Source of the DNA: Bolinopsis microptera
Lineage: Eukaryota; Ctenophora; Tentaculata; Lobata; Bolinopsidae
Assembly: GCF_026151205.1 (NCBI RefSeq)
Contig: NC_087080.1
Coordinates: forward strand, 15,447,337-15,511,336
Direction of reading: 5' to 3'
Length of the DNA: 64,000 bases
In this document: positions 4,099 to 59,900 of the stretch, piece after piece
Layout: each line of letters begins with the position of its first letter
How positions within the stretch are numbered: position 1 is the first letter of the stretch
Translations under genes and position numbers: made by a program
The notes under the pieces: model-generated
What the model saw: the letters and a program-made list of their open reading frames with translations, nothing else
What the model was told of the DNA's origin: nothing
Databases searched by the model: none

Positions 4099-5025
4099 AA
4101 GGACCCCAGGCTATTATTTTTATGAAAATTTGGCGGAATGACAGGCTGAGCTGAGCTGTGAGCGCCGCCCAGTATTCAGTAAACCTATATAAAAAAGACT
4201 TACACATTGACATTACAGTTACCGGGGGTGGCGTTTCTAAAAATCCGGACGTGTGGAAATTGTGGCAGAATTAACGAAAAAGTCCCATTTATTTCAAATA
4301 TTTGAATTTTATTTAAACTCTTTGAATTTTATTGTATCTTACTGCATACTGGCCCGCACTCAGCCTGTCATTCCGCCGAAATGCCGAATCTCTATTGTTT
4401 ATAAACATGATAGCCTGAGGTCCCCAGGTAAACCTGGGGACTCCAGGTAAACCTGGGGACCCCAGGTTATTATGTTCATAAACATAGCCTGGCGTATTTG
4501 AACCCTTTAAAACGCGCAAATAGCCGCGTTTATGCGATTTTACAATCAATTAATCAAATTTTACAGTCTAACTCAGCGCGCGGCTCTTGTAGCGCGTACG
4601 TCACTTCTTTTTTATTGGTAGTTGGCGTGCACGTGATCTTTTGCGCAACTGTAATTAGTTCTGAACTATCACATAAATGCTAGTCATGTGCGCTCTAACA
4701 TCCAATAAGAATTCGCACTTTTTTCAGGGCGATGGAGGTCGTAATTCACTCAGCCCGAATAAAAATTCGGCGGAATGACAGGCTGAGTGCCGCCCAGTAA
4801 GCTCTATCCAGAGCCCTTGCTGCTTGCGCTTGCAGTGGCTTACTGGGCCGCTTGTATCACGTTGCGACCCCCACGGTCGTTTCACTGACGATACAGGGGG
4901 AGCCGCGCACTTCGTGCGCGGCGGGTCATACAACGTATGACAACTGGGCCGCGCTCAGCCTGTCATTCCGCCAAATCTTTATTCTATATGTTAATGAACA
5001 TAATAGCCTGGGGTCCTCAGGTAAC
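4099..5025. repeat. cluster of five dispersed palindromic repeat copies
   Basis: Copies lie at about 4099-4175 (GGACCCCAGGCTATTAT to GGCGGAATGACAGGCTGAG to GCCGCCCAGTA), 4350-4445 (reverse order), 4455-4490 (partial), 4768-4805 and 4945-5025. Opposed copies can pair and form hairpins. Between them is GC-richer DNA, including a palindrome near 4905-4925 (GCGCACTTCGTGCGC). Open frames over these copies are read-through of repeat DNA and are not called as genes. Confidence 0.6.
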
Positions 5026-14193: not shown

Positions 14194-17100
14194 TTATGTG
14201 TTGATATCTTGGTTAAACTGAGCTGGTAAAGGGGGGAGAGGGAGGGGGGAGAGGGAGGGAGGGGGGGGGGGGGCCTGGGGGGATGTTTTTATCCTTCAAA
14301 CATTGGCCAATCAAATCATACATGTCTTTAAAAAGATATAAAAAGTAATGATGCTGGTACTGAATGAAACATACCTATCTGTGGCACGAAGAAAAGTACT
14401 GCTCCCTCCAGAGCGACAGAAGAGTGAAACCTCATCTTGTAAACATCTCTTGTCTGATGAAAACAGGGTTCAGACCACTCCATACTTCTCACATGTGGGT
14501 AGTAGTCTTCAAGCATTGGATGTTTACCTGGGGAAGCATTGGATGTTTACCTGAGGAAGCATTAGATGTTTACCTGGGGAAGCATTGGATGTTTACCTGA
14601 GGAAGCATTAGATGTTTACCTGGGGAAGCATTGGATGTTTACCTGGGGAAGCATTGGATGTTTACCTGGGGAAGCATTAGATGTTTACCTGGGGAAGCAT
14701 TGGATGTTTACCTGAGGAAGCATTAGATGTTTACCTGGGGAAGCATTGGATGTTTACCTGGAGAAGCATTGGATGTTTACCTGAGGAAGCATTAGATGTT
14801 TACCTGGAGAAGCATTGGATGTTTACCTGGAGAAGCATTGGATGTTTACCTGGGGAAGCATTGGATGTTTACCTGGAGAAGCATTGGATGTTACCCTGGA
14901 GAAGCATTGGATGTTTACCTGAGGAAGCATTGGATGTTTACCTGGAGAAGCATTGGATGTTTACCTGGAGAAGCATTGGATGTTTACCTGGGGAAGCATT
15001 GGATGTTTACCTGGAGAAGCATTGGATGTTTACCTGAGGAAGCATTAGATGTTTACCTGGGGAAGCATTGGATGTTTACCTGGGGAAGCATTGGATGTTT
15101 ACCTGGGGAAGCATTGGATGTTTACCTGAGGAAGCATTAGATGTTTACCTGGGGAAGCATTAGATGTTTACCTGGGGAAGCATTGGATGTTTACCTGGGG
15201 AAGCATTAGATGTTTACCTGGGGAAGCATTGGATGTTTACCTGGGGAAGCATTGGATGTTTACCTTGGAGAAGCATTGGATGTTTACCTGGGGAAGCATT
15301 GGATGTTTACCTGGGGAAGCATTGGATGTTTACCTGGAGAAGCATTGGATGTTTACCTGGAGAAGCATTGGATGTTTACCTGGGGAAGCATTGGATGTTT
15401 ACCTGGAGAAGCATTGGATGTTTACCTGGAGAAGCATTGGATGTTTACCTGGAGAAGCATTGGATGTTTACCTGGAGAAGCATTGGATGTTTACCTGGGG
15501 AAGCATTGGATGTTTACCTGGAGAAGCATTGGATGTTTACCTGGAGAAGCATTGGATGTTTACCTGGGGAAGCATTGGATGTTTACCTGGAGAAGCATTG
15601 GATGTTTACCTGGAGAAGCATTGGATGTTTACCTGGGGAAGCATTGGATGTTTACCTGGAGAAGCATTGGATGTTTACCTGAGGAAGCATTAGATGTTTA
15701 CCTGGGGAAGCATTGGATGTTTACCTGGGGAAGCATTGGATGTTTACCTGGGGAAGCATTGGATGTTTACCTGAGGAAGCATTAGATGTCTACCTGGGGA
15801 AGCATTAGATGTTTACCTGGGGAAGCATTGGATGTTTACCTGGGGAAGCATTAGATGTTTACCTGGGGAAGCATTGGATGTTTACCTGGGGAAGCATTGG
15901 ATGTTTACCTTGGAGAAGCATTGGATGTTTACCTGGGGAAGCATTGGATGTTTACCTGGGGAAGCATTGGATGTTTACCTGGGGAAGCATTGGATGTTTA
16001 CCTGGAGAAGCATTGGATGTTTACCTGGGGAAGCATTTACCTGGAGAAGCATTGGATGTTTACCTGGGGAAGCATTGGATGTTTACCTGGAGAAGCATTG
16101 GATGTTTACCTGGGGAAGCATTGGATGTTTACCTGGAGAAGCATTTACCTGGAGAAGCATTGGATGTTTACCTGGGGAAGCATTGGATGTTTACCTGGAG
16201 AAGCATTGGATGTTTACCTGGGGAAGCATTGGATGTTTACCTGGAGAAGCATTGGATGTTTACCTGGAGAAGCATTGGATGTTTACCTGGGGAAGCATTG
16301 GATGTTTACCTGGAGAAGCATTGGATGTTTACCTGGAGAAGCATTGGATGTTTACCTGGAGAAGCATTGGATGTTTACCTGGAGAAGCATTGGATGTTTA
16401 CCTGGGGAAGTATTGGATGTTTACCTGGAGAAGCATTGGATGTTTACCTGGAGAAGCATCGGATGTTTACCTGGGGAAGCATTGGATGTTTACCTGGAGA
16501 AGCATTGGATGTTTACCTGGAGAAGCATTGGATGTTTACCTGGGGAAGCATTGGATGTTTACCTGGAGAAGCATTGGATGTTTACCTGAGGAAGCATTAG
16601 ATGTTTACCTGGGGAAGCATTGGATGTTTACCTGGGGAAGCATTGGATGTTTACCTGGGAAGCATTGGATGTTTACCTGAGGAAGCATTAGATGTTTACC
16701 TGGGGAAGCATTAGATGTTTACCTGGGGAAGCATTGGATGTTTACCTGGGGAAGCATTAGATGTTTACCTGGGGAAGCATTGGATGTTTACCTGGGGAAG
16801 CATTGGATGTTTACCTTGGAGAAGCATTGGATGTTTACCTGGGGAAGCATTGGATGTTTACCTGGGGAAGCATTAGATGTTTACCTGGGGAAGCATTGGA
16901 TGTTTACCTGGGGAAGCATTGGATGTTTACCTTGGAGAAGCATTGGATGTTTACCTGGGGAAGCATTGGATGTTTACCTGGAGAAGCATTGGATGTTTAC
17001 CTGAGGAAGCATTAGATGTTTACCTGGGGAAGCATTGGATGTTTACCTGAGGAAGCATTAGATGTTTACCTGGGGAAGCATTGGATGTTTACCCTGGAGA

Positions 17101-18361
17101 AGCATCTTGCATTACTGGTCATTAATCCGGAGAGAATTAACTTAATAATAATCGGTTTCTTATTTTACATTCTACAGAACAGAAAAATTGTCAATATTTC
17201 ATCCCGAATGGTAGTCTTACCATTGATAGTCAGCCATAGGAATTGATCCGAAACGTCTATTACGACGTGCGCTGTATCTCCAGTCACTATACTCTCCGTT
17301 AGTATATTTCGTGTCATGAAGCAGTTAGTGAAGTCGTGACCAAATCTTATTTGTTGGCTAGGATAGTCATAAAATATGAAAAAATCCTCCAGAGTTCCTG
17401 TAAAATTAATATGGTGATATGTGAACGTTTTTGTTGCTGAAACATCTGCTTATTCGTAGACGAAAATAATACCACACTTTAACTCTATAATAAAGATAAT
17501 TGTAAGATAAATAGCTCCTATATGATAAGTCTAATAAAAATCTAACCCAAATCATTTAAAAAAGAGATCGTCTGAACTGATGTTGGGCCGGGATTCCTCT
17601 TATATTTAATCTCGATACGTCCCTTATTGAATCGAAGTTCTCTAAGATCGGTTTCACATTCTTCAGCTTCACAGTTGATAAATTGGTTCCCTGTATAATT
17701 TTGTAAGTATAGAATATTATTTATTAGTATAGAAAATGCTATGTAAAAAATAAACTCTCCCAAGTAAGTCGGTAAGTAACCATTAGTAAGTAACCATTAG
17801 TTAGTAACCAGTAAGTAAGTAACCATTAGTAAGTAACCTGTAAGTAACCAGTAAGTAAGTAACCAGTAAGTAAGTAACCAGTAAGTAAAGAAGTAAGTAA
17901 CCATTAGTAAGTAACCATTAGTAAGTAACCAGTAAGTAAATAACCAGTAAGTAAGTAACCAGTAAGTAAAGAAGTAAGTAACCATTAGTAAGTAACCATT
18001 AGTAAGTAACCAGTAAGTAAGTAACCAGTAAGTAAGTAACCAGTAAGTAAAGAAGTAAGTAACCATTAGTAAGTAACCATTAGTAAGTAACCAGTAAGTA
18101 AGTAACCAGTAAGTAAGTAACCAGTAAGTAAGTAACCAGTAAGTAAGTAACCAGTAAGTAAGTAACCAGTAAGTAAGTAACCGCTAAGTAAGTAACCAGT
18201 AAGTAAGTAACCGCTAAGTAAGTAACCAGTAAGTAACCATATAGTACAGAGTATGCTCTACCAGCTCGGTACAATATAAGATCACAAGTTTACTTACATG
18301 ATCTTGTTGACGTTGAGGTGACTATTAGCCCTCCTAGCAGTAACAACGCTGTAAATACCAT
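14194..18361 (-). CDS. secreted protein of unknown family, paralog 1 (188 aa), with massively expanded intron
   Basis: Five exons in transcript order: 18361-18298, 17690-17547, 17397-17221, 14527-14375 and 14222-14194. Their phases all join and give 188 residues. Exon 1 is a signal peptide (MVFTALLLLGGLIVTSTSTR). The mature part contains FINCEAEECETDLREL, a strand-rich stretch TAHVVIDVSDQFLWLTING that resembles beta-sandwich carbohydrate-binding folds, and EGAVLFFVPQ near the end. The terminal exon (QFNQDINT) follows a long C-rich polypyrimidine tract. The copy at 21933-23674 has the same exon boundaries. Intron 3 is filled by about 112 copies of a 23-bp unit that spans its own 3' splice site, and intron 1 by GTAAGTAACC-type repeats. 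Secretion is well supported. The fold is a guess and no function is claimed. Confidence 0.78.
14223..14280. repeat. G-rich (antisense C-rich) tract before the terminal exon
   Basis: On the minus strand this reads as a long C/T run ending CTTTACCAG directly before the last exon of paralog 1, so it is the polypyrimidine tract of that acceptor. A matching, purer G run lies at 21837-21860 before the equivalent site of paralog 2. Length is expected to vary. Confidence 0.75.
14514..17105. repeat. 23-bp minisatellite, about 112 copies, each containing a splice-site sequence
   Basis: Plus-strand unit TTACCTGGGGAAGCATTGGA plus TGT, with G/A variants (GAGAAG, GAGGAAG, TTAGATG) and a few short units, for example near 16036 and 16144. 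On the minus strand the unit reads CTTCCCCAG followed by GTAAACATCCAATG. This is both the 3' acceptor and the first codons of exon 4 of the secreted-protein gene. All three plus-strand frames are open because 23 is not divisible by three, which produces long spurious ORFs. Paralog 2 at 22075-22100 has only one unit, so the array is a lineage-specific expansion. Confidence 0.95.
17765..18236. repeat. GTAAGTAACC-type tandem repeats in intron 1 of paralog 1
   Basis: Units of AGTAAGTAACC and ATTAGTAAGTAACC alternate in a loose higher-order pattern of roughly 94-108 bp, with GTAAAGAAGTAAGT at the period ends. Paralog 2 has only a few such units near 23552-23590, so the array grew after duplication. 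Open frames across it (YWLLTYWLLT and the like) are repeat artefacts. Confidence 0.92.
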
Positions 18362-21860: not shown

Positions 21861-21932
21861 TATTTATCGTTCAAACATTGGCCAATCATGTTTTAAAAAT
21901 GATATTGGTACTGAATTAAACATACCTATCTG

Positions 21933-23674
21933 TTAAACGAGGAAGAGTACTGCTCCCTCCAGAGCGACAGAAGAGTAAAACTTCATCTTGTAAACGTCTT
22001 TTGTCTTATGAAAACAGTGGTCATACTGCGCCATATCTCTCACATACGGATTACGCATAGGATACTCATCAGTTCTTGGATCTTTACCTTAGGGAAGCAT
22101 CTTGCTTTACTGATCATTAAATTGAGGAAAGAAAAATAGCATATTAATCGTTTTCTTATTTTACATTTTACAGAACAGAAAAATTATTAATATTTTATCA
22201 CTAATGGAAAAAAGCGGTTCAAAGTCTTACCATTGATAGTCAGCCAAATGAATTGATCCGAAAGGTCTATTATGACGTGCGCTGTATCTCCAGTGACTTT
22301 ACTCTCTGCTGGCATGTCTTCTGTCACTAAGCACCCTGAGTAGGCGTGCCCAATTCTTGTTCTCTGGCTAGGATAGTCAAAAAATGAGACAAATTCCTCC
22401 AGAGTTCCTGTAAAATTAGTATGGTGTTATGTGAAAGTGTTTGTTGCTGGAACATTTGTTCATTCGTAGACGAAATTGATTACGGGGGTTGAAATTTCGG
22501 ACAAACGGGGGGCAGTATCGAGATAGCCCGACCACTGGTCCGCGGACCACTGTCCGCGGACCACTGTCTGCGGACCACTGTCTGCGGACCACTGTCTACC
22601 AGATCATATTACTGTATATTAACAGTATCCCCTGAATCAAGCAGGGTTCACATCATCCCCTGAATCAAGCAGGGTTCACATCATCGCACGCGAATTCCAA
22701 TCAGCGGTGGTGTCAAGGAAGGAAGTCTCGAGCATTCTCTAGGGAGGCGGTGGGTCCATTAATTTCGTCCATTAGACAGAAGAGTACCATGTCAGGAATT
22801 GGAATAGTTGTTGTTGTTGATGATGGCAACTGATAATACTTCACCAAAAACGAACGACTTATATACCACATTTTAATCGTAATCATTTATTTCATTGAGC
22901 AATCAATATTATTCGTAACTAATTATATCCGAGAGACCACATTTGAATCGTAATCAATAGTTTGATCCAGTAATTTACTACGCTACAATTAATTATGCTA
23001 GTCGTAACTAATTGCATCCAAGATACCATACATACCATTCATATGATCTGGTAACCAATCAACTATTCACAAACACCTGTTGCTTGATTCAGGGGATACT
23101 GTTATTATACAGTAATATGATCTGGTAGACAGGTGTCCGCGGACAGTGGTCCGCGGACCAGTGGTCGGGCTATCTCGATACTGCCAAACGGGGTGATATG
23201 AAAATCCGAGATTTAGGCGGACGTCCTAATTAGATGGCCCCCTGAGTAAATAAAACCTAACAAGAAATATATGTATGATAAGTCTAATCAAAATCTAACC
23301 CAAATCTAACCCAAATCTAACCCAAATCTAACCCAAATCATTGAAGAAAGAGATCGTCTGAGTTGATTCTGATCCGGGATTTCTCTTATATTTAAACTCG
23401 ATACGTCTCTTATTGAATCGAAATTCTCTAAGATCGGTTTCACATTCTTCAGCTTCACAGTTGATAAATTGGTTCCCTGTATAATTTTGTTAGTATAGAA
23501 TATTATTTATTAGTATTGAAAATACTATGTAAAAAATGAACTCTCCTAATTCAGTAAGTAACCAGTAAGTACTAACCAGTAAGTAAGTGGTTAACCCTAA
23601 CCACAAGTTTACTTACATGATCTTGTTGACGTTGAGGTGACTATTAGCGCTCCTAACAACGCTGTACATATCAT
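21933..23674 (-). CDS. secreted protein of unknown family, paralog 2 (177 aa)
   Basis: Four coding exons in transcript order: 23674-23617 (signal peptide ICTALLGALIVTSTSTR), 23476-23333, 22407-22231 and 22087-21933 (TAA). All phases join. It parallels paralog 1 exon for exon; exons 2 and 3 have identical lengths. Shared blocks are FINCEAEECETDLRE, TAHVIIDLSDQFIWLTING and SSVALEGAVLF. A TAA replaces the codon for Pro in FVPQ of paralog 1, so the protein ends before the last splice. The former donor and the downstream exon sequence (QFNQDIN at 21790-21820) are still visible. An in-frame ATG 12 bases further upstream (23686) is absent from paralog 1, so the shared ATG was chosen. Intron 2 carries a 675-bp transposon. 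Confidence 0.75.
22511..23185. mobile_element. non-autonomous DNA transposon, 675 bp, 8-bp target duplication
   Basis: Terminal inverted repeats exceed 100 bp and begin GGCAGTATCGAGATAGCCCG. The exact 8-bp duplication AAACGGGG lies at 22503-22510 and 23186-23193. Near each end are repeated GACCACTGTCCGCGG-type motifs, four on the left and two on the right. No transposase frame is present. An 8-bp duplication is typical of hAT and P superfamilies, but the ends are not diagnostic. It sits in intron 2 of paralog 2, and paralog 1 lacks it. Confidence 0.9.
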
Positions 23675-32122: not shown

Positions 32123-32451
32123 ATTTGACCAAAACCCATAATCATGGGTAGAGTGTACCGCTGCCAGTGTCTCTCTTTTCCAAACAAAAGGAAATGATAT
32201 TAATTTGAGGAACCGTCCGCTAATGCAAATTGATACCGAGAATGAAATCGGTCGCTCGCTTTTCCCATTTAATAAGCTTTATTACAATTCGTAAGCCGTG
32301 AATGAATGGGAAAAGCGAGCGACCGATTTCATTCTCGGTATCAATTTGCATTAGCGGACGGTTCCTCAAATTAATATCATTTCCTTTTGTTTGGAAAAGA
32401 GAGACACTGGCAGCGGTACACTCTACCCATGATTATGGGTTTTGGTCAAAT
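32123..32451. repeat. perfect 147-bp inverted repeat with 35-bp spacer
   Basis: The left arm 32123-32269 and right arm 32305-32451 appear to be exact reverse complements. The left arm starts ATTTGACCAAAACCCATAAT and reaches GCGAGCGACCGA-type sequence in reverse near the spacer. Identity this high implies a recent origin or ongoing gene conversion. The right arm runs straight into the 10-bp array at 32452. Confidence 0.93.
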
Positions 32452-34249: not shown

Positions 34250-35072
34250 CGGCTTGCAGGATGTGGGTTTTATAATCTAGGCAGGATGTGGGTTCTATAA
34301 TCTAGGCAGGATGTGGGTTATATAATCTAGGCAGGATGCGGGTTTTATAATCTAGGCAGGATGTGGGTTTTATAATCTAGGCAGGATGTGGGTTCTATAA
34401 TCTAGGCAGGATGTGGGTTCTATAATCTAGGCAGGATGTGGGTTTTATAATCTAGGCAGGATGCGGGTTTTATAATCTAGGCAGGATGTGGGTTCTATAA
34501 TCTAGGCAGGATGTGGGTTTCATAATCTAGGCAGGATGCGGGTTTTATAATCTAGGCAGGATGTGGGTTCTATAATCTAGGCAGGATGCGGGTTTTATAA
34601 TCTAGGCAGGATGTGGGTTTATAATCTAGGCAGGATGTGGGTTCTATAATCTAGGCAGGATGTGGGTTCTATAATCTAGGCAGGATGTGGGTTTTATAAT
34701 CTAGGCAGGATGCGGGTTTTATAATCTAGGCAGGATGTGGGTTCTATAATCTAGGCAGGATGTGGGTTTCATAATCTAGGCAGGATGTGGGTTTTATAAT
34801 CTAAGCAGGATGTGGGTTTTATAATCTAGGCAGGATGCGGGTTCTATAATCTAGGCAGGATGTGGGTTTTATAATCTAGGCAGGATGTGGGTTTTATAAT
34901 CTAGGCAGGATGCGGGTTCTATAATCTAGGCAGGATGTGGGTTTTATAATCTAGGCAGGATGCGGGTTTTATAATCTAGGCAGGATGTGGGTTTTATAAT
35001 CTAGGCAGGATGTGGGTTTTATAATCTAGGCAGGATGTGGGTTTTATAATCTAGGCAGGATGCGGGTTTTAT
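34250..35072. repeat. 25-bp minisatellite, about 33 copies
   Basis: Unit TATAATCTAGGCAGGATGTG plus GGTTT. Most changes are at two sites: GATGT versus GATGC, and GGGTTT versus GGGTTC, so units fall into four main types. One unit lacks a T near 34620. It is in noncoding DNA. Confidence 0.95.
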
Positions 35073-35079
35073 AATCTAA

Positions 35080-48620: not shown

Positions 48621-50008
48621 GCATGATGGGATTCTGTCTAAATTAAGAGTTTTCGCACGAAGAACCAATTGATATAGACTGGTAGCGATCGATTAGATAT
48701 TCGGGGAAGTTAAAATTACGATTTTTAACAGAGCGGGCAAAATATTGACTAAGAAGGCGACCTTCACATAAATCATCAAGTTAATGATCGAGCTGATAAT
48801 GATAAATAATATTGTTTAGATATTTTCCTACGCGCTTATATTATTAGTCATGATATATTGATTTGGTTGAACCAAAATCTCCTATTATTGACTTGTTGAC
48901 AAAACTACAAATCAATCTTGAAACTGATCGAAACCGGGGTGATTCCAATTGATAAAATTCTACATGATTTATTCAACTGCTACGTAATTAAATTTCATAT
49001 ATATTATTATCTAACTTAACAAAATGAAATCTTATTTTAAGATGCAGAATGACTTATTTATGAACTTAACATTAAAATAGGGCAGCTTGAATTTTCTACT
49101 GTTAAAGATTTGGTTCTCATTTCTTATGTATGCTTCTCATATCAACTCTTTGTACATTTTGTTTTTACTTTATTCACATTTTATCATAAACAATGATAAC
49201 TTTGTATTTGATTTGTCAATTTCCTAACTCCCTCAAAAAAGATATCCAACTTGGTTAAAAATTTATTTTCTTATCGCAATAAAAGCAACCTTACAGATCA
49301 GCGAAACTCTTTTTGTTTATTATTGGTTGATGAAGCCATGAAGGGCAATTATATTAGAAACTGAAATTTCCTCTGAAAGTATTTTTGTCAATCATCTTCT
49401 TCTAAAAACATTTTTTATTTTCTAGAAGTCGAAAATAGAATTACGAAAGTAATAAACAATTTTTGTAAACAACCCCCCTTTTACCATCAGCCACTTTCAT
49501 AGCGAAATCCAAAACTTGTGTCTCCTTCCCACTCGAGTGGATGTGATTTATAGAAGGCTTTTTATTAGCCGCCTCAACAGCTCAGTAAGGAATAAAGATC
49601 CAGGTCCTCGGTGCAATGCACAATGTGTACATGTGTATCAGGTACAGTAAATAGTAAATACATTTCACAACTACGAATAAACTCTTTTATTGAGTAAACC
49701 TATGTTGAGTAAACCTAGATGTTTGTACTGAAATGGTAATGTTTTGACCTGGCTCATTCAGTTTCATTTTCAACCGCATCTGCAAATTTTGATTATTGGC
49801 ACTGCATGCTATTCACGGTGTAAAGTTACATAGATAAGAAATAAATAGGGAAAAATTGTCACGTTTTTTACATAAAAATGCTTGGATTGTGTCCGTACAC
49901 GTTCACATTACATGTTACACTTACAGTTTGTCGTTGTCCTCAGTTATAATTTTTAAATAATTTAAACCGGTGTTATTACTGTTAGTCCCGTAATTTTAAA
50001 TTTTCAGG
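48621..50008. other. intergenic; probable 5' intron of the NERD-helicase gene at its right end
   Basis: AT-rich. AATAAA signals near 49278 and 49450 could serve the upstream mosaic gene. The bases just before the ATG at 50009 read TTTTAAATTTTCAG|G, a good 3' splice acceptor. At least one upstream exon of the next gene is therefore likely to lie here, but it could not be identified. Confidence 0.5.
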
Positions 50009-52432
50009 ATGACGTTGATAGAGAAGTTGCTCGAAATTGGCCAAAATATTTTGCAAAATTATTATTCAAGTCGGAAAGAGTTTGGAGGACCCATTATGAT
50101 ACCCCCGATACCAGATTCGAAGTTTATCGAAAAACTTCCTGACAATAACAGCTCCTCGAAAATGGATATAAGCAAAAGAGGGCACCAGCATGGATATGAG
50201 GCAGAAGTCCAACTGTATCGTGGTTTTGAGCAATTGGGGATATTAGGGAAACATATGTTGGTAATTCATCAGTTGGAATACACTCATAGACAGTACTCGG
50301 CATTTTTACCGAAACATCCTTGTGACAGCAAGAGTTGTAGTAAAGCTAAAGGAGATAGCACGAATAATTCTGAGCATAATTGTCACAACCATTCTAATAA
50401 TATAGAGGGAGAGTGTGATTTTCTTGTGGTTGGTCATGCTTTTGTGGCAGTTTTCGAAGTTAAAGCTACAATTCTGACAAATATGGAAGACCAAGATATA
50501 AGAGGCAAAATTGACCGGTTTGACGTTTGTTATAGTGCTGCATTGAGACAAAGAAAGAGAATGATTAACCTAGTAAAATACTTTTCTGATGATAATGGTT
50601 CTCCAGTCGAGACCATCGGTTTTACAGTCTTCAGTAACATTTCCAGGGACGAATTCGATCATATCATTTTGAAAAACTCAAAGAAGGAGCTGTCTAGTTA
50701 TGGTTTGTTGTTTAGTGATGATTTAAGGAATTTCAAAAGATGGTTTGTTGAAAACCTGGCATCACAATTTCCTAATTCTACAAGGACAATGTATTCGAGT
50801 GATGAAGACCTCCTGGAAAAGATAAAATGCTGTTTGCTTGGGTTGTGGTGCATGGATAATACAAACCATTGGGATGGAACAAAATGCAGTCTAGCTAGAT
50901 GCGTCAAAGATGTCGATGAAAAACTTAGAATGGGAATTTTTACAGAGTATGAGGCCAAGTCGATTATGAAAGACCCATTGGCATTGGGAGTATTAAACAC
51001 AATAAGAAAACGTGAGCGTTATACAACTAGCAGTACGTGTTCTGAAAGTGGAAGTGATATGGCTACCGTTATCAGCGATACTAGTGAGTGGTCCAGTTTG
51101 GTGGTTGGCACAGATAGGCCAAGTCCCGTATCCATTATTATTGATGTGATCGATGATTCGACGGATATTTTCAAAAAATATCTCAACATACGCTGTTTGT
51201 CTGAGGGGCAGAGAGCAGTATTCGACAGTAATGAAAGGTTTCTTTGGGTTAATGGTCCGGCAGGCTCCGGCAAAACTTTAGTAATACTTGGTAAGATACT
51301 TCAAATCGTGAGAACCCCATACTCGGGTAAAAAGATCATTTTAATGTGTCCTGATTTGATCAACTGCACCGCTGTAAGACGTCATCAAACATTTTTGGAT
51401 GAAATAGAAGACATTCCGTATGAAATAATGTCATTGGTTGACACTGACTTCGATGGATTTGAATCAAAAATAGCGGAGTCCGATTCCAAGGTGATTTTGT
51501 TGAAATCAAGATGTTCAAAAGATGGATCTTTCATCATGCTGCTTCAGACTCTTATTCAGCTCCAGCAGGGAAGGTACCATATTATTGTGGACGACTTTCA
51601 GCTTGACAAGTTTTGGACTGATTCAACTTCAAGTGAGGATCCAGAAGTCATCACGGGATTCATCACAGCCATGGATGAGGTCAAAAGACGACCCAACGAT
51701 GAAATATCTGTTTGGGTTTTCTGTGATTTGGTCCAGCAGATTCTTTATGAGACACTATATAGCGCTAGCCATATAAAAAAACTCAGTAAAGATCACAGAA
51801 AGAAACTGAAAGCAAACTTTGTGATAAAATCTTTAGAGGCAAATTTGAGGAATACATGTGATATAGCAACACTACTTGATTTGCTAAGAAAAAGATTCAC
51901 AGAAATGGTGAAACCATCGATCGCACAACAAGAGATCGGACATTTTCTTCGGGGAACAAAGCCACTTTTCTACTTAATCGAAGATGCAAGTGATGATTTT
52001 TCCGACATCCTAAGGAAAGAAATAAAGAAGCTAGATGGTCTTGGTAACAATGATATTGGCGTGCTATACAGTGGTCGCACAAAATTCGACCACAAATTTC
52101 TCGGACATCCGCAAAGTGAACATCAAAAAGATATTGGAAAAATAATTGAAACAGTGAGTGAAGTGATAGGAAAAGCAAAAGTTATTATCGATGTTGAGCG
52201 CATTGAGGACAGTTGGTCAGCTGAGTGGCCAGCAGTAATCGCTATTATCCACGGATCAGTTCGGTGGACAGAACTTTACCTTGCAGTATCCAGAGCTAGA
52301 GTATACTCTTCTGTTATTATATTGGGTTCGGGGAATGAATCAGAAGCTGGCGCTTTCTTAAAATATTTTGAGCTATGTAACGACGTTTGTAAGGTTATAA
52401 CTATTAATAAATCAAAATGTCCACTCAAGTGA
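50009..52432 (+). CDS. NERD-type nuclease domain fused to UvrD-like superfamily 1 helicase, 807 aa
   Basis: One uninterrupted exon. Residues 60-210 resemble the NERD/PDDEXK fold: HGYEAEVQLYRGFEQL with Glu66, GECDFLVVGHAFVAVFEVK with Asp137, Glu150 and Lys152. A Cys/His-rich insert (DSKSCSKAKG, EHNCHNHSNN, residues 106-130) separates the first Glu from the Asp. From about residue 396 come SF1 helicase motifs: LSEGQRAVF (Q motif), NGPAGSGKT (Walker A, 415-423), IIVDDFQ (motif II, 525-531), VFCDLVQQIL (motif III), NLRNTCDIATLL (motif IV), EWPAVIAII (motif V) and LYLAVSRAR (motif VI). The known role of the fold is ATP-driven nucleic-acid unwinding coupled to cleavage. NERD helicases are mainly bacterial, and a role in defence or repair here is inference. 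A splice acceptor abuts the ATG, so more N-terminal sequence is possible. The lack of introns contrasts with its neighbours and fits retroposition or transfer. Confidence 0.82.
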   Translation: MTLIEKLLEIGQNILQNYYSSRKEFGGPIMIPPIPDSKFIEKLPDNNSSSKMDISKRGHQHGYEAEVQLYRGFEQLGILGKHMLVIHQLEYTHRQYSAFLPKHPCDSKSCSKAKGDSTNNSEHNCHNHSNNIEGECDFLVVGHAFVAVFEVKATILTNMEDQDIRGKIDRFDVCYSAALRQRKRMINLVKYFSDDNGSPVETIGFTVFSNISRDEFDHIILKNSKKELSSYGLLFSDDLRNFKRWFVENLASQFPNSTRTMYSSDEDLLEKIKCCLLGLWCMDNTNHWDGTKCSLARCVKDVDEKLRMGIFTEYEAKSIMKDPLALGVLNTIRKRERYTTSSTCSESGSDMATVISDTSEWSSLVVGTDRPSPVSIIIDVIDDSTDIFKKYLNIRCLSEGQRAVFDSNERFLWVNGPAGSGKTLVILGKILQIVRTPYSGKKIILMCPDLINCTAVRRHQTFLDEIEDIPYEIMSLVDTDFDGFESKIAESDSKVILLKSRCSKDGSFIMLLQTLIQLQQGRYHIIVDDFQLDKFWTDSTSSEDPEVITGFITAMDEVKRRPNDEISVWVFCDLVQQILYETLYSASHIKKLSKDHRKKLKANFVIKSLEANLRNTCDIATLLDLLRKRFTEMVKPSIAQQEIGHFLRGTKPLFYLIEDASDDFSDILRKEIKKLDGLGNNDIGVLYSGRTKFDHKFLGHPQSEHQKDIGKIIETVSEVIGKAKVIIDVERIEDSWSAEWPAVIAIIHGSVRWTELYLAVSRARVYSSVIILGSGNESEAGAFLKYFELCNDVCKVITINKSKCPLK

Positions 52433-56938: not shown

Positions 56939-59900
56939 ATGGGTCGAAGAAGCAAATCGAAGAAGATCCACTCGTCGGAGGTTGTTTATGACGCTAGTGA
57001 ACACTACAGAACTTGATCAGATGGTCACGATCCAGGAAGCCAGCATGGAGAACTGCGGAGGGTTTGGCAACGTCGGACTTTTCTCCAGCTCTGGAGTGTA
57101 CACTGTCACTCTGGGAGACGGACAGTGTGTAGAGATCAGGGAGAGTGATCTGAAACAGAGCAGTCGCAGGGCTGATAAATTCACTTGCATGTTCAACGGA
57201 ATGAAACATAAGCTGAAACTAGCCCAGATCCAGCCTAGTGCTGCCTTCTCCCAGTCTGTTGAAGTGTCCGGAGATGTCTCTGGTGATATACTGAGAGTTA
57301 GGTCTGCTACTCCCGGTCATGGGGCTGCTTTGGTGGATTCCAATATCGATCAATTCCAGTCGATGTCAATTTCCACTCGACCGTCACCTGTCACTTTCTA
57401 TCCTTACTACAAGATCAAGATTGGTGATTCCGTCAAGGTACTACCATTCCACATCGTGTCTGCTGGCAAAGCATCTCGAAGATTCTTCAGGTTTAGGTAT
57501 GACGGTAAAACTATAACCATCAGAAAATCCCACATTCGTCCCGTTACCAAACAGTACAAGGTAATCTTGGACGGAAGGGTAACCGACATTGGATGTAATA
57601 ACATTCAGCCATATGGAGATAATGCTTATCTCATTACCCATAATGGTGTTGAGAGAATCGTTGGTTCGGCCTCCGTGCACTCTGGTGTCCAGGATGGTGC
57701 TGAACTCATTACTGACGATGAGGATGGAATCCATAAGAAGCCTCTGTTCCCAAGTAAGAATCTGAATCGTGGATCCGCTGCAGAAGAGGACGATGCTACA
57801 GGACGCAGATTCGGGCTGATTAAAAGATATACCAAAACAAAGCGAGGCAAACGTGTAAGAAAGGTTCCAAGACGTAAGAAGAGTGGACGAAAAGACTTAA
57901 AGATTTATGATGTTAGCTTCTGTCTGTGCTACCAAATCATCCTTAATGGTGCCCACATCGTGATCCCTCAACACAGGATCAAACAGTCCAAGAGGCACAG
58001 TGGATATCTTAGATTCCGTTATAATAAGATGGTCTACTACATCACCCCCCAAACCATCACACAAGCTTTCTATGCTCCTGTGGTAGGATACTACAGTATT
58101 GTCATTGACGAGAAGGTTGTGGTTGTAAGTGGAAGAGAAATGGAGAAGCACTCTGAGAAAGAAGACACTTACATCATCAGATACAACAATGATACGTTTG
58201 AAGTTAGCTCCACAGCTATCAGCTTCTTGGGAGAATATGTGTTGGAGCCAGACAGAGAAACGCTAACTGACGAAGGTGAATCCACTCCGGTGTCTTCAGA
58301 AGAATCTGACACCTCTGACTCTGATGCATCTGTATCTGGCAGAGATGAGATTGTTGAGGATGCCAACATTTACACCACCAGGACCTTCATTATCAGGAGG
58401 AAAACCATAGCTACATGTTACAGGATCAGACTGAATGGTTCTGAGTTAGTCGTTCCGGTCAGTCAGGTCAGCAACTGCAAGACCAGACCTGGAATGCTCA
58501 GAATAACATACTACAACAAAACTTACTTCATCTCACAGGATGACATTGAGTTGCAATACGAGACTGAAGTCACTGGATTCTACTCGGTCACAGTCAACGG
58601 AAACCCGTTATTCTTACTGGAGATGATATTGAAGATAGCCCATCTGACGGCACATACATCTGCTACTACAAAAACTCCAAGTACGTCTTGGCTCAGACCC
58701 AAATCATGTACCTGGGAGATTATCCCGTTATCCAAGCTCCTAACTACGCGGAAACAGAGGTGGAGAGCTCCGAGGAGTCTGATGGACAGACTGGTCACGG
58801 TGATGACGATGTCTCCGAGGAAGAACCTCAGATGTGCATCTTTGTGAACGAGAAGCCCAACATGGACATGACTCTTCCAGAACCAACCCAAGGATCTGTG
58901 ATGGGATGGAAGGTGTACATTGACGGAAGGTTCTATACAGTACCTGCTAACCGCTTGAAGCAGCTAAGGAACGCTCCTGGCTTCATGGAAATTATCGTCA
59001 ACCGTAAGCTGTACCATGTCTCTATTGAGAACATCCAACCCATTATGTTGCCTACCGTGTACTTCATCACTATCCAGAACAGACCCATCTTGGTTCCTGC
59101 TAAGGATGTTCGAAGACACCCAACTGAAGAAGGATTTGTCATCGTTAAGTACCGTGGACAGGATTACGTTATAGCTGTCGGGGAACTGAAGCTGGCTGAT
59201 GGAAGCTCTGTTAACTATGAAGATATCCCCATGGACCAGGAATACATCATAACAAGAACTACCAAAACAACAAAGCGAACAAGAAGAAAGAAGAGATCAG
59301 GCGACTTTGGAAGGTCATGCTCACCTCTCTGCGGCAAAGTCAATCTAGCATCTGGATCTGATACTGAAAGCCACGGAATTAACCCAGCTGGATTCTCCGC
59401 CATGGCCCAAATTGCTAACGGTATGGCACCTCAGGTGGCATTCTCTCACGGTGCAACCCATGTGGTCGCTCCTGGTGGCATTGTCATGGGACAAGGTGGA
59501 TTCGGACATGCCATAGGTGGTCGTCCCGGTTCACCTGCTGGTCTGGCACATGTTGGATTGTCTCTAGACCAAGGATATGTTCATTCTGGAGGCTATGGAG
59601 GTTCGGGTGGACATGGTACTGGTATGTCAGGAGGTGGACATGGTGGTTCTGGTGTCACATTCGCCCCAGCCGGAGGGCATGGTACCATGGTTGGACTAAC
59701 CCATGCTCAATCCGTAGGAGGATCTGGCCAAGCTCAAGCCGGAGGGCATGGTACCATGGTTGGACTAACCCATGCTCAATCCATAGGAGGGTCTGGCCAA
59801 GCTCAAGCCGGAGGAAATGGTACCATGGTTGGACTAACCCATGCTCAATCCATAGGAGGATCTGGCCAAGTGATAGCAGGCGGACAAGGCCTCATGATGG

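Follow-up and report, generated by a model that had tools for sequence, protein, structure and literature searches.

The window analysed here is a stretch of 64,000 nucleotides from the genome of Bolinopsis microptera (assembly GCF_026151205.1, contig NC_087080.1, positions 15,447,337 to 15,511,336 of the forward strand). Its minus strand carries a gene modelled with four exons, hereafter the host gene, and a relative of it, paralogue 2. The third intron of the host gene is occupied almost entirely by a 23 base pair (bp) minisatellite, the last junction of which directly precedes exon 4. The features of the host gene are listed below in window coordinates.

18298-18361, minus strand: exon 1, containing the start codon and encoding an N-terminus that looks hydrophobic by eye (gene model)
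17547-17690, minus strand: exon 2 (gene model)
17221-17397, minus strand: exon 3 (gene model)
14528-17220, minus strand: intron 3, 2693 bp, nearly all array (gene model)
14511-17105, minus strand: 23-bp minisatellite with 113 AG(G)/GTA junctions (Tandem Repeats Finder and unit decomposition)
14375-14527, minus strand: exon 4, 153 nucleotides, phase 1 to phase 1 (gene model and frame test of the unit acceptors)

The four joined exons leave an open frame of 179 codons and all three introns are in phase 1. The protein matched no Pfam family at E 0.1, and its two matches among PDB sequences were at chance level (E approximately 0.6).

Tandem Repeats Finder (TRF) described the array as 113.3 copies with 93% matches and a score of 4480. 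Splitting the minus strand at AG(G)/GTA, where the slash marks the splice junction, gave 113 junctions with 112 complete units in between. The first-pass annotation of about 112 tandem copies of a 3′ splice site was thus accurate, and the range given for it, 14375-17220, coincides exactly with intron 3 and exon 4 taken together. The complete units were mostly 23 bp long (n = 103), the others being 24 bp (n = 5), 22 bp (n = 2) and 16 bp (n = 2). The commonest unit on the gene strand, GTAAACATCCAATGCTTCCCCAG, accounted for 47 of the 112, and a second type differing from it by CTTCTCCAG for 33. CATCT was present in two types (n = 11 and n = 8), the former also having CCTCAG; four units were 24-mers with a CCAAG end and nine further types occurred once each. 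The junction was exactly AG/GT in 111 of the 113 cases, one extra G being found in the other two, the first junction included. The sequence after the junction was GTAAAC in 109 cases, and nearly every unit therefore combines an AG acceptor with a donor-like start, as had been proposed. No claim is made that AG/GT conservation is a sign of selection on the array, since about six independent substitutions are too few.

A block of seven unit types is repeated at unit positions 10, 50 and 78, which fits unequal exchange in the array. Tandem arrays are readily misassembled, but 2.6 kb is well inside long-read length, and the varied unit types and repeated blocks suit a real structure; it is very unlikely that the copy number is an assembly artefact. 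The plus strand of the array displays open frames of up to 301 amino acids, the longest at 15775-16680. Yet a repeated 23-bp unit that lacks stops must by arithmetic stay open over long distances in each of the three frames, and the likelihood that the array is protein-coding on this strand is close to nil.

In the genome searched (264.65 Mb in 232 contigs), the relatives of the host gene were paralogue 2 in the same window and matches on contig C4. The latter resemble a second tandem pair, in one member of which exon 4 was matched. The exons of paralogue 2 are located on the minus strand at 23674-23617, 23476-23333, 22407-22231 and 22087-21926, and two of its features are relevant here.

22088-22230, minus strand: intron 3 of paralogue 2, 143 bp, without array (gene model)
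21926-22087, minus strand: exon 4 of paralogue 2, with a single diverged unit at the acceptor and an in-frame stop near the end (sequence comparison and gene model)

The boundary in paralogue 2 reads ATGCTTCCCTAAG in the intron and GTAAAGATCCA in the exon (also written as ATGCTTCCCTAAG followed by GTAAAGATCC). The C4 paralogue, a distant outgroup whose exon 3, by our own reading, apparently ends out of frame, likewise has a single copy, GACGCTTCCCCAG before the junction and GTAAAGACCCAATG after it (also written as GACGCTTCCCCAG followed by GTAAAGACCC). The presence of a single acceptor copy in both relatives indicates that a genuine intron/exon boundary was amplified, the acceptor being old and the array new in the host-gene copy, where intron 3 has 2693 bp against the 143 bp of paralogue 2. 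GTAAA is the start of exon 4 in all three copies, and the donor-like unit start is inherited from the exon. Paralogue 2 had been put forward as the natural ‘before’ state of a before/after pair; the single unit at the same place agrees with this, but with its in-frame stop it is no clean ‘before’ gene.

The array unit, with up to two mismatches allowed, had 105 matches in the genome, all on the reverse strand. Among the approximately 100 matches listed, one was outside the main array, with two mismatches, on contig C3. More than one hundred CAG/GUAAA and pyrimidine-AG sites might titrate U1 or U2AF as a splicing-factor decoy, or protect the intron against premature polyadenylation. CAG/GTAAA, found at 106 of the 113 junctions, is a seven-base match to the 5′ end of U1, which counts for a decoy. 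Against it, neither paralogue 2 nor the C4 copy has the array, and a second such array was absent among the matches listed; this function is highly improbable.

Only one of the 113 unit acceptors leaves the frame open, namely the last, as expected from the earlier statement that the frame shifts unless the last unit is chosen. The first base of exon 4 (14527) directly follows the last array junction, which makes that junction the exon 4 acceptor and identifies the 23-bp unit, as annotated, with this acceptor and the first codons of the exon.

The array is most likely a silent splice-junction minisatellite of the kind termed mirages in amphioxus, its surplus units being removed as intron. A 23-bp stretch running from the tail of intron 3 into the opening bases of exon 4 would have been duplicated in tandem and, as the repeated unit blocks suggest, unequal exchange or slippage would have expanded it to approximately 113 copies. 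The surplus copies, which lie upstream of the exon-attached copy, would leave with intron 3, and exon 4 would begin at the last copy, 14527. This copy may be chosen because no other one is contiguous with the exon, with its enhancers and with the donor downstream of it. Since the surplus units would be removed with the intron, the array should be neutral or almost neutral with respect to the protein.

Splice-junction arrays recur in the Bolinopsis microptera genome, at donors and at acceptors, and some are in well-conserved genes. Flanks were examined for 28 other arrays of splice-motif words, comprising 8 of 9 arrays of CAGGTAAGT, 14 of 20 of TTTCAGGT and 6 of 13 of TTTCAGGA among the matches listed; a CAGGTAAG array on contig C1 was left out. 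Exon adjacency was judged by eye from open frame and splice sites. A plausible coding exon adjoins 15 of the 28, the other 13 being unclear or without an exon. The arrays at exons are on the donor side in L028, L029, L030 and L032, and on the acceptor side in L027, L037, L039, L040, L043, L044, L046, L050, L051, L053 and L054.

Some database homology was found for six of these 15 exons. Translations from ten were compared with Pfam, of which two matched at E ≤0.01: a homeodomain in joined exons (E 4.4e-23, above the cut-off) and a WD40 stretch (MABP1/WDR62 model 1.2e-5, WD40 0.0015, both below the Pfam cut-offs). No Pfam match was obtained for the remaining eight. Four of these were compared with PDB sequences and all four matched, to glutathione reductase (3.2e-13), a P4-ATPase (8.1e-11), FIG4 (8.8e-10) and, weakly, GMP synthase (0.0053). 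L030, L032, L039 and L050 had no Pfam match and were called exons from their open frames only, as were L027, L044, L046, L051 and L053, for which no database comparison was made.

Nine tandem acceptors of the FIG4-like gene were each translated together with the upstream exon, and RTNCVDCLDRTN was read through with the last only; the joined protein aligns to FIG4 across the junction (E 1.7e-15). In the homeobox gene, which has 20 CAG/GTAAGT donors, WFQNRR was obtained with the first donor only, and in L030, with eight donors, a stop was avoided with the first only. By frame and homology, acceptor arrays would thus need the last copy and donor arrays the first, within the same genome and in conserved genes, the FIG4-like and homeobox genes among them.

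The host-gene array could alternatively act as a ratchet, in which exon 3 joined to any unit rebuilds a donor, CAATG/GTAAAC, and is respliced until the last unit is reached, so that errors heal themselves. The exact AG/GT at nearly all junctions, the predominant GTAAAC start and the GTAAA start common to paralogue 2 and C4 are as this would have it. The pyrimidine tract in the unit is short, however, and the 23-nucleotide step is probably too short for splicing on its own. Exon-adjoining arrays incapable of ratcheting also exist: the nine junctions of the FIG4-like gene are AG/GA (n = 6) or AG/GG (n = 3) and never AG/GT, so resplicing at the junction cannot explain the tolerance of that array, and recursive splicing is not needed for tolerating such arrays. 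Nor is AG/GT clearly favoured, since by our own count the region from the start of C1 to C7:0.81 Mb has 17 arrays of TTTCAGGT and 13 of TTTCAGGA. A ratchet is accordingly improbable. The same low likelihood is given to the broader proposal that junction minisatellites are recurrent at donors and acceptors, that the spliceosome picks the exon-attached copy among up to 113 near-identical ones, and that in AG/GT arrays mis-joined intermediates can be spliced again, the tandem ratchet sites acting as a ladder that heals itself. AG/GT as a necessity for tolerance was rejected, as TTTCAGGA arrays are nearly as many and some are at exons.

As improbable as the ratchet is an isoform or poison-exon device, in which splicing would use upstream units at an appreciable frequency, frame-shifted transcripts would undergo nonsense-mediated decay and copy number would tune the output. 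The frame is broken by 112 of the 113 unit acceptors, as such a device would have it, and minisatellites can influence splicing elsewhere, with examples from C. elegans and IFI6 described below. On the other side, amphioxus mirages are reported silent in the portion of PMC3087553 considered, and the same architecture is found in conserved genes, where such a loss would presumably be costly. As the exon-attached copy alone gives the conserved protein in the FIG4-like and homeobox genes, and amphioxus mirages reportedly leave splicing undisturbed, isoform generation appears unsupported. AG/GT ratcheting appears unsupported as well.

Several points weigh against a silent minisatellite. The frame test covered 134 AGs of intron 3 and exon 4. 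The frame stayed open for ten of them, which were 14527 plus nine positions within exon 4, and because of these nine the frame alone does not fix the start of exon 4, whereas homology to the C4 copy and paralogue 2 does. It is from frame and homology together that the last unit is taken to be used. The host gene model spans exons 1 to 4, an exon 5 not having been sought. For exons 2 and 3, the ratio of nonsynonymous to synonymous substitution rates (dN/dS) between the host gene and paralogue 2 comes to 0.88, so that purifying selection on the host gene cannot be demonstrated and it could be decaying. Some other arrays have units that by our own reading are open and multiples of three (a 33-bp unit in the gene resembling glutathione reductase, one of 42 bp in L046, and 24 bp plus a downstream 48 bp in L051), and in-frame protein repeats are possible there, which would speak against a fully silent version. 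Finally, a paper of 1995 by Turri et al. reportedly describes, by its title, a donor minisatellite of IFI6 (6-16) with units providing splice sites. Minisatellites are not always silent: in the accessible part of PMC4526556, downstream units of the IFI6 minisatellite are used as donors, so that IFI6 and the host-gene array both have splice-site units, those of IFI6 being donor units with downstream ones in use. In C. elegans, according to the excerpt of PMC4039745, one minisatellite is over-represented near multiple alternative splicing.

It is unproven that splice-junction arrays are commoner than expected by chance; with mixed evidence, any enrichment is at most few-fold and possibly nil. 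The genome is rich in tandem repeats, with 75 arrays (9-100 bp, at least 2.5 copies) in the approximately 214 kb of readable sample plus window, and many junction arrays are therefore expected by chance. The sample consisted of 16 stretches of 10 kb at chosen positions, one of which (L013) was entirely N, and the hexamer test used 75 of 122 deduplicated arrays, the main array included. Donor hexamers were not enriched in these repeat units, at low power (seen versus expected: AGGTAA 2 versus 0.86, GGTAAG 0 versus 0.46, GTAAGT 1 versus 0.97). Three tandem copies of CAGGTAAG gave 828 matches versus 26 for the reversal, all those listed being from one array on C1, and three copies of CAGGTAAGT gave 377, with at least nine distinct arrays among approximately 100 matches listed. 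Control words gave five arrays for GACAGTGAT (58 matches), one for AGTCAGATG (12 matches) and one for GGTACATGA (4 matches), and two reversed control words had no matches. For TTTCAGGT, at least 20 arrays were present among approximately 100 of 233 matches listed, and for TGGACTTT eight arrays in all 23 matches, the single-site counts in 221 kb being 16 and 7, respectively. TTTCAGGA had 439 matches, with at least 13 arrays among those listed, and its reversal 65, the latter being raw matches and not arrays. Two observations speak against enrichment. The reversed controls TAGTGACAG and GTAGACTGA had 336 and 24 matches, again raw matches and not arrays, and CAGGTAAGT itself is twice as common as its reversal genome-wide (2463 versus 1212, array copies included).

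Other repeats were noted at these loci. At 17772-18236, in intron 1 of the host gene, lies another array, which on the gene strand is (GGTTACTTACTTACT)n. Its sequence includes that of the exon 1 donor, GTAAGTAA, in reverse complement, and a short version is present in paralogue 2. A short 19-bp repeat at 4414-4467 has a CCCCAGGTAAAC-like sequence in common with the main array, with no exon beside it by eye, and the likeness is likely due to chance. Among the other arrays in the genome, the L051 exon (C1:25355260-25355850) apparently has arrays at both borders, with the 24-bp acceptor units upstream and the 48-bp unit downstream; the latter has a donor-like GTATGT at nine sites 48 bp apart and is also open. 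Two similar acceptor arrays lie 7 kb apart at C5:22867141 and C5:22874032; the first adjoins the P4-ATPase-like exon and the second may be a duplicate. L027 (C8:7268823-7269127) is a 37-bp array with units running from GTAAGT to TTATTTCAG, each like a complete tiny intron.

Elsewhere in the window are a large minisatellite at 34256-35078 (25 bp x 33, TRF), a 69-bp repeat (23 codons) in a long open frame at 59668-59870, perhaps a protein repeat, and a perfect inverted repeat at 32123-32451 with 147-nucleotide arms and 35 nucleotides between them, possibly a transposon or fold-back element. An open frame of 810 amino acids at 50000-52432 has weak NERD and helicase matches below the Pfam cut-offs.

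Among known systems, recursive splice sites (zero-length exons) juxtapose AG and GT, and the host-gene array resembles them in its AG/GT junctions. It is unlike them in its short pyrimidine tract, 23-nucleotide steps and short intron. Rogers in 1989 proposed that introns are gained when AGGT segments duplicate in tandem (as cited in the available part of PMC4974935), and in fission yeast, tandem copies with splice-like sites are removed as an intron (PMC3629103 and PMC4974935, in excerpt); the proto-splice site is AGGC in the former and is cited as AGGT in the latter. Such gain places a new intron inside an exon, whereas paralogue 2 and C4 both have intron 3 at this position already, and such gain was therefore ruled out here. 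The literature on tandem repeats and splicing that was searched (recursive splicing, acceptor minisatellites, intron length; few subscription papers) contained no closer case. By name, mirages were found there only in lancelet papers, two in number, with the content of one further paper, on pines, left out of account.

The closest likeness is to the amphioxus mirages, which in the excerpts of PMC3087553 and PMC3902484 are minisatellite-like tandem duplications of a 5′ or 3′ intron/exon boundary, present in Adh3, the globins BflGb6 and BflGb9 and troponin C, with similar repeats in PGBD5. Many of their units have AG/GT, regular splicing is reportedly undisturbed, and both RT-PCR (reverse transcription polymerase chain reaction) and length polymorphism are reported (PMC3087553, PMC3902484). 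The host-gene array has the same traits of tandem minisatellite-like repeats (23 bp x 113.3 by TRF) and a unit spanning the boundary, with AG/GT in the units, and frame and homology agree with undisturbed regular splicing. Its 23-bp unit is bracketed by the 10-72 bp of the Adh3 units, and its recurring inner blocks fit the homogenisation within a cluster by which mirages turn over, a process that in mirages leaves out the edge units. It differs in copy number, approximately 113 against 3 and 6 in two BflGb6 haplotypes as far as the excerpts go, and in having been read from one genome assembly. The amphioxus genome is about twice the size of that of Bolinopsis microptera. These likenesses suggest that mirages occur in another animal besides lancelets. 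Near-identical tandem splice sites are a clean natural test of splice-site choice, because with near-equal strength at every copy position and exon context must decide, and the host-gene array is one of many such tests.

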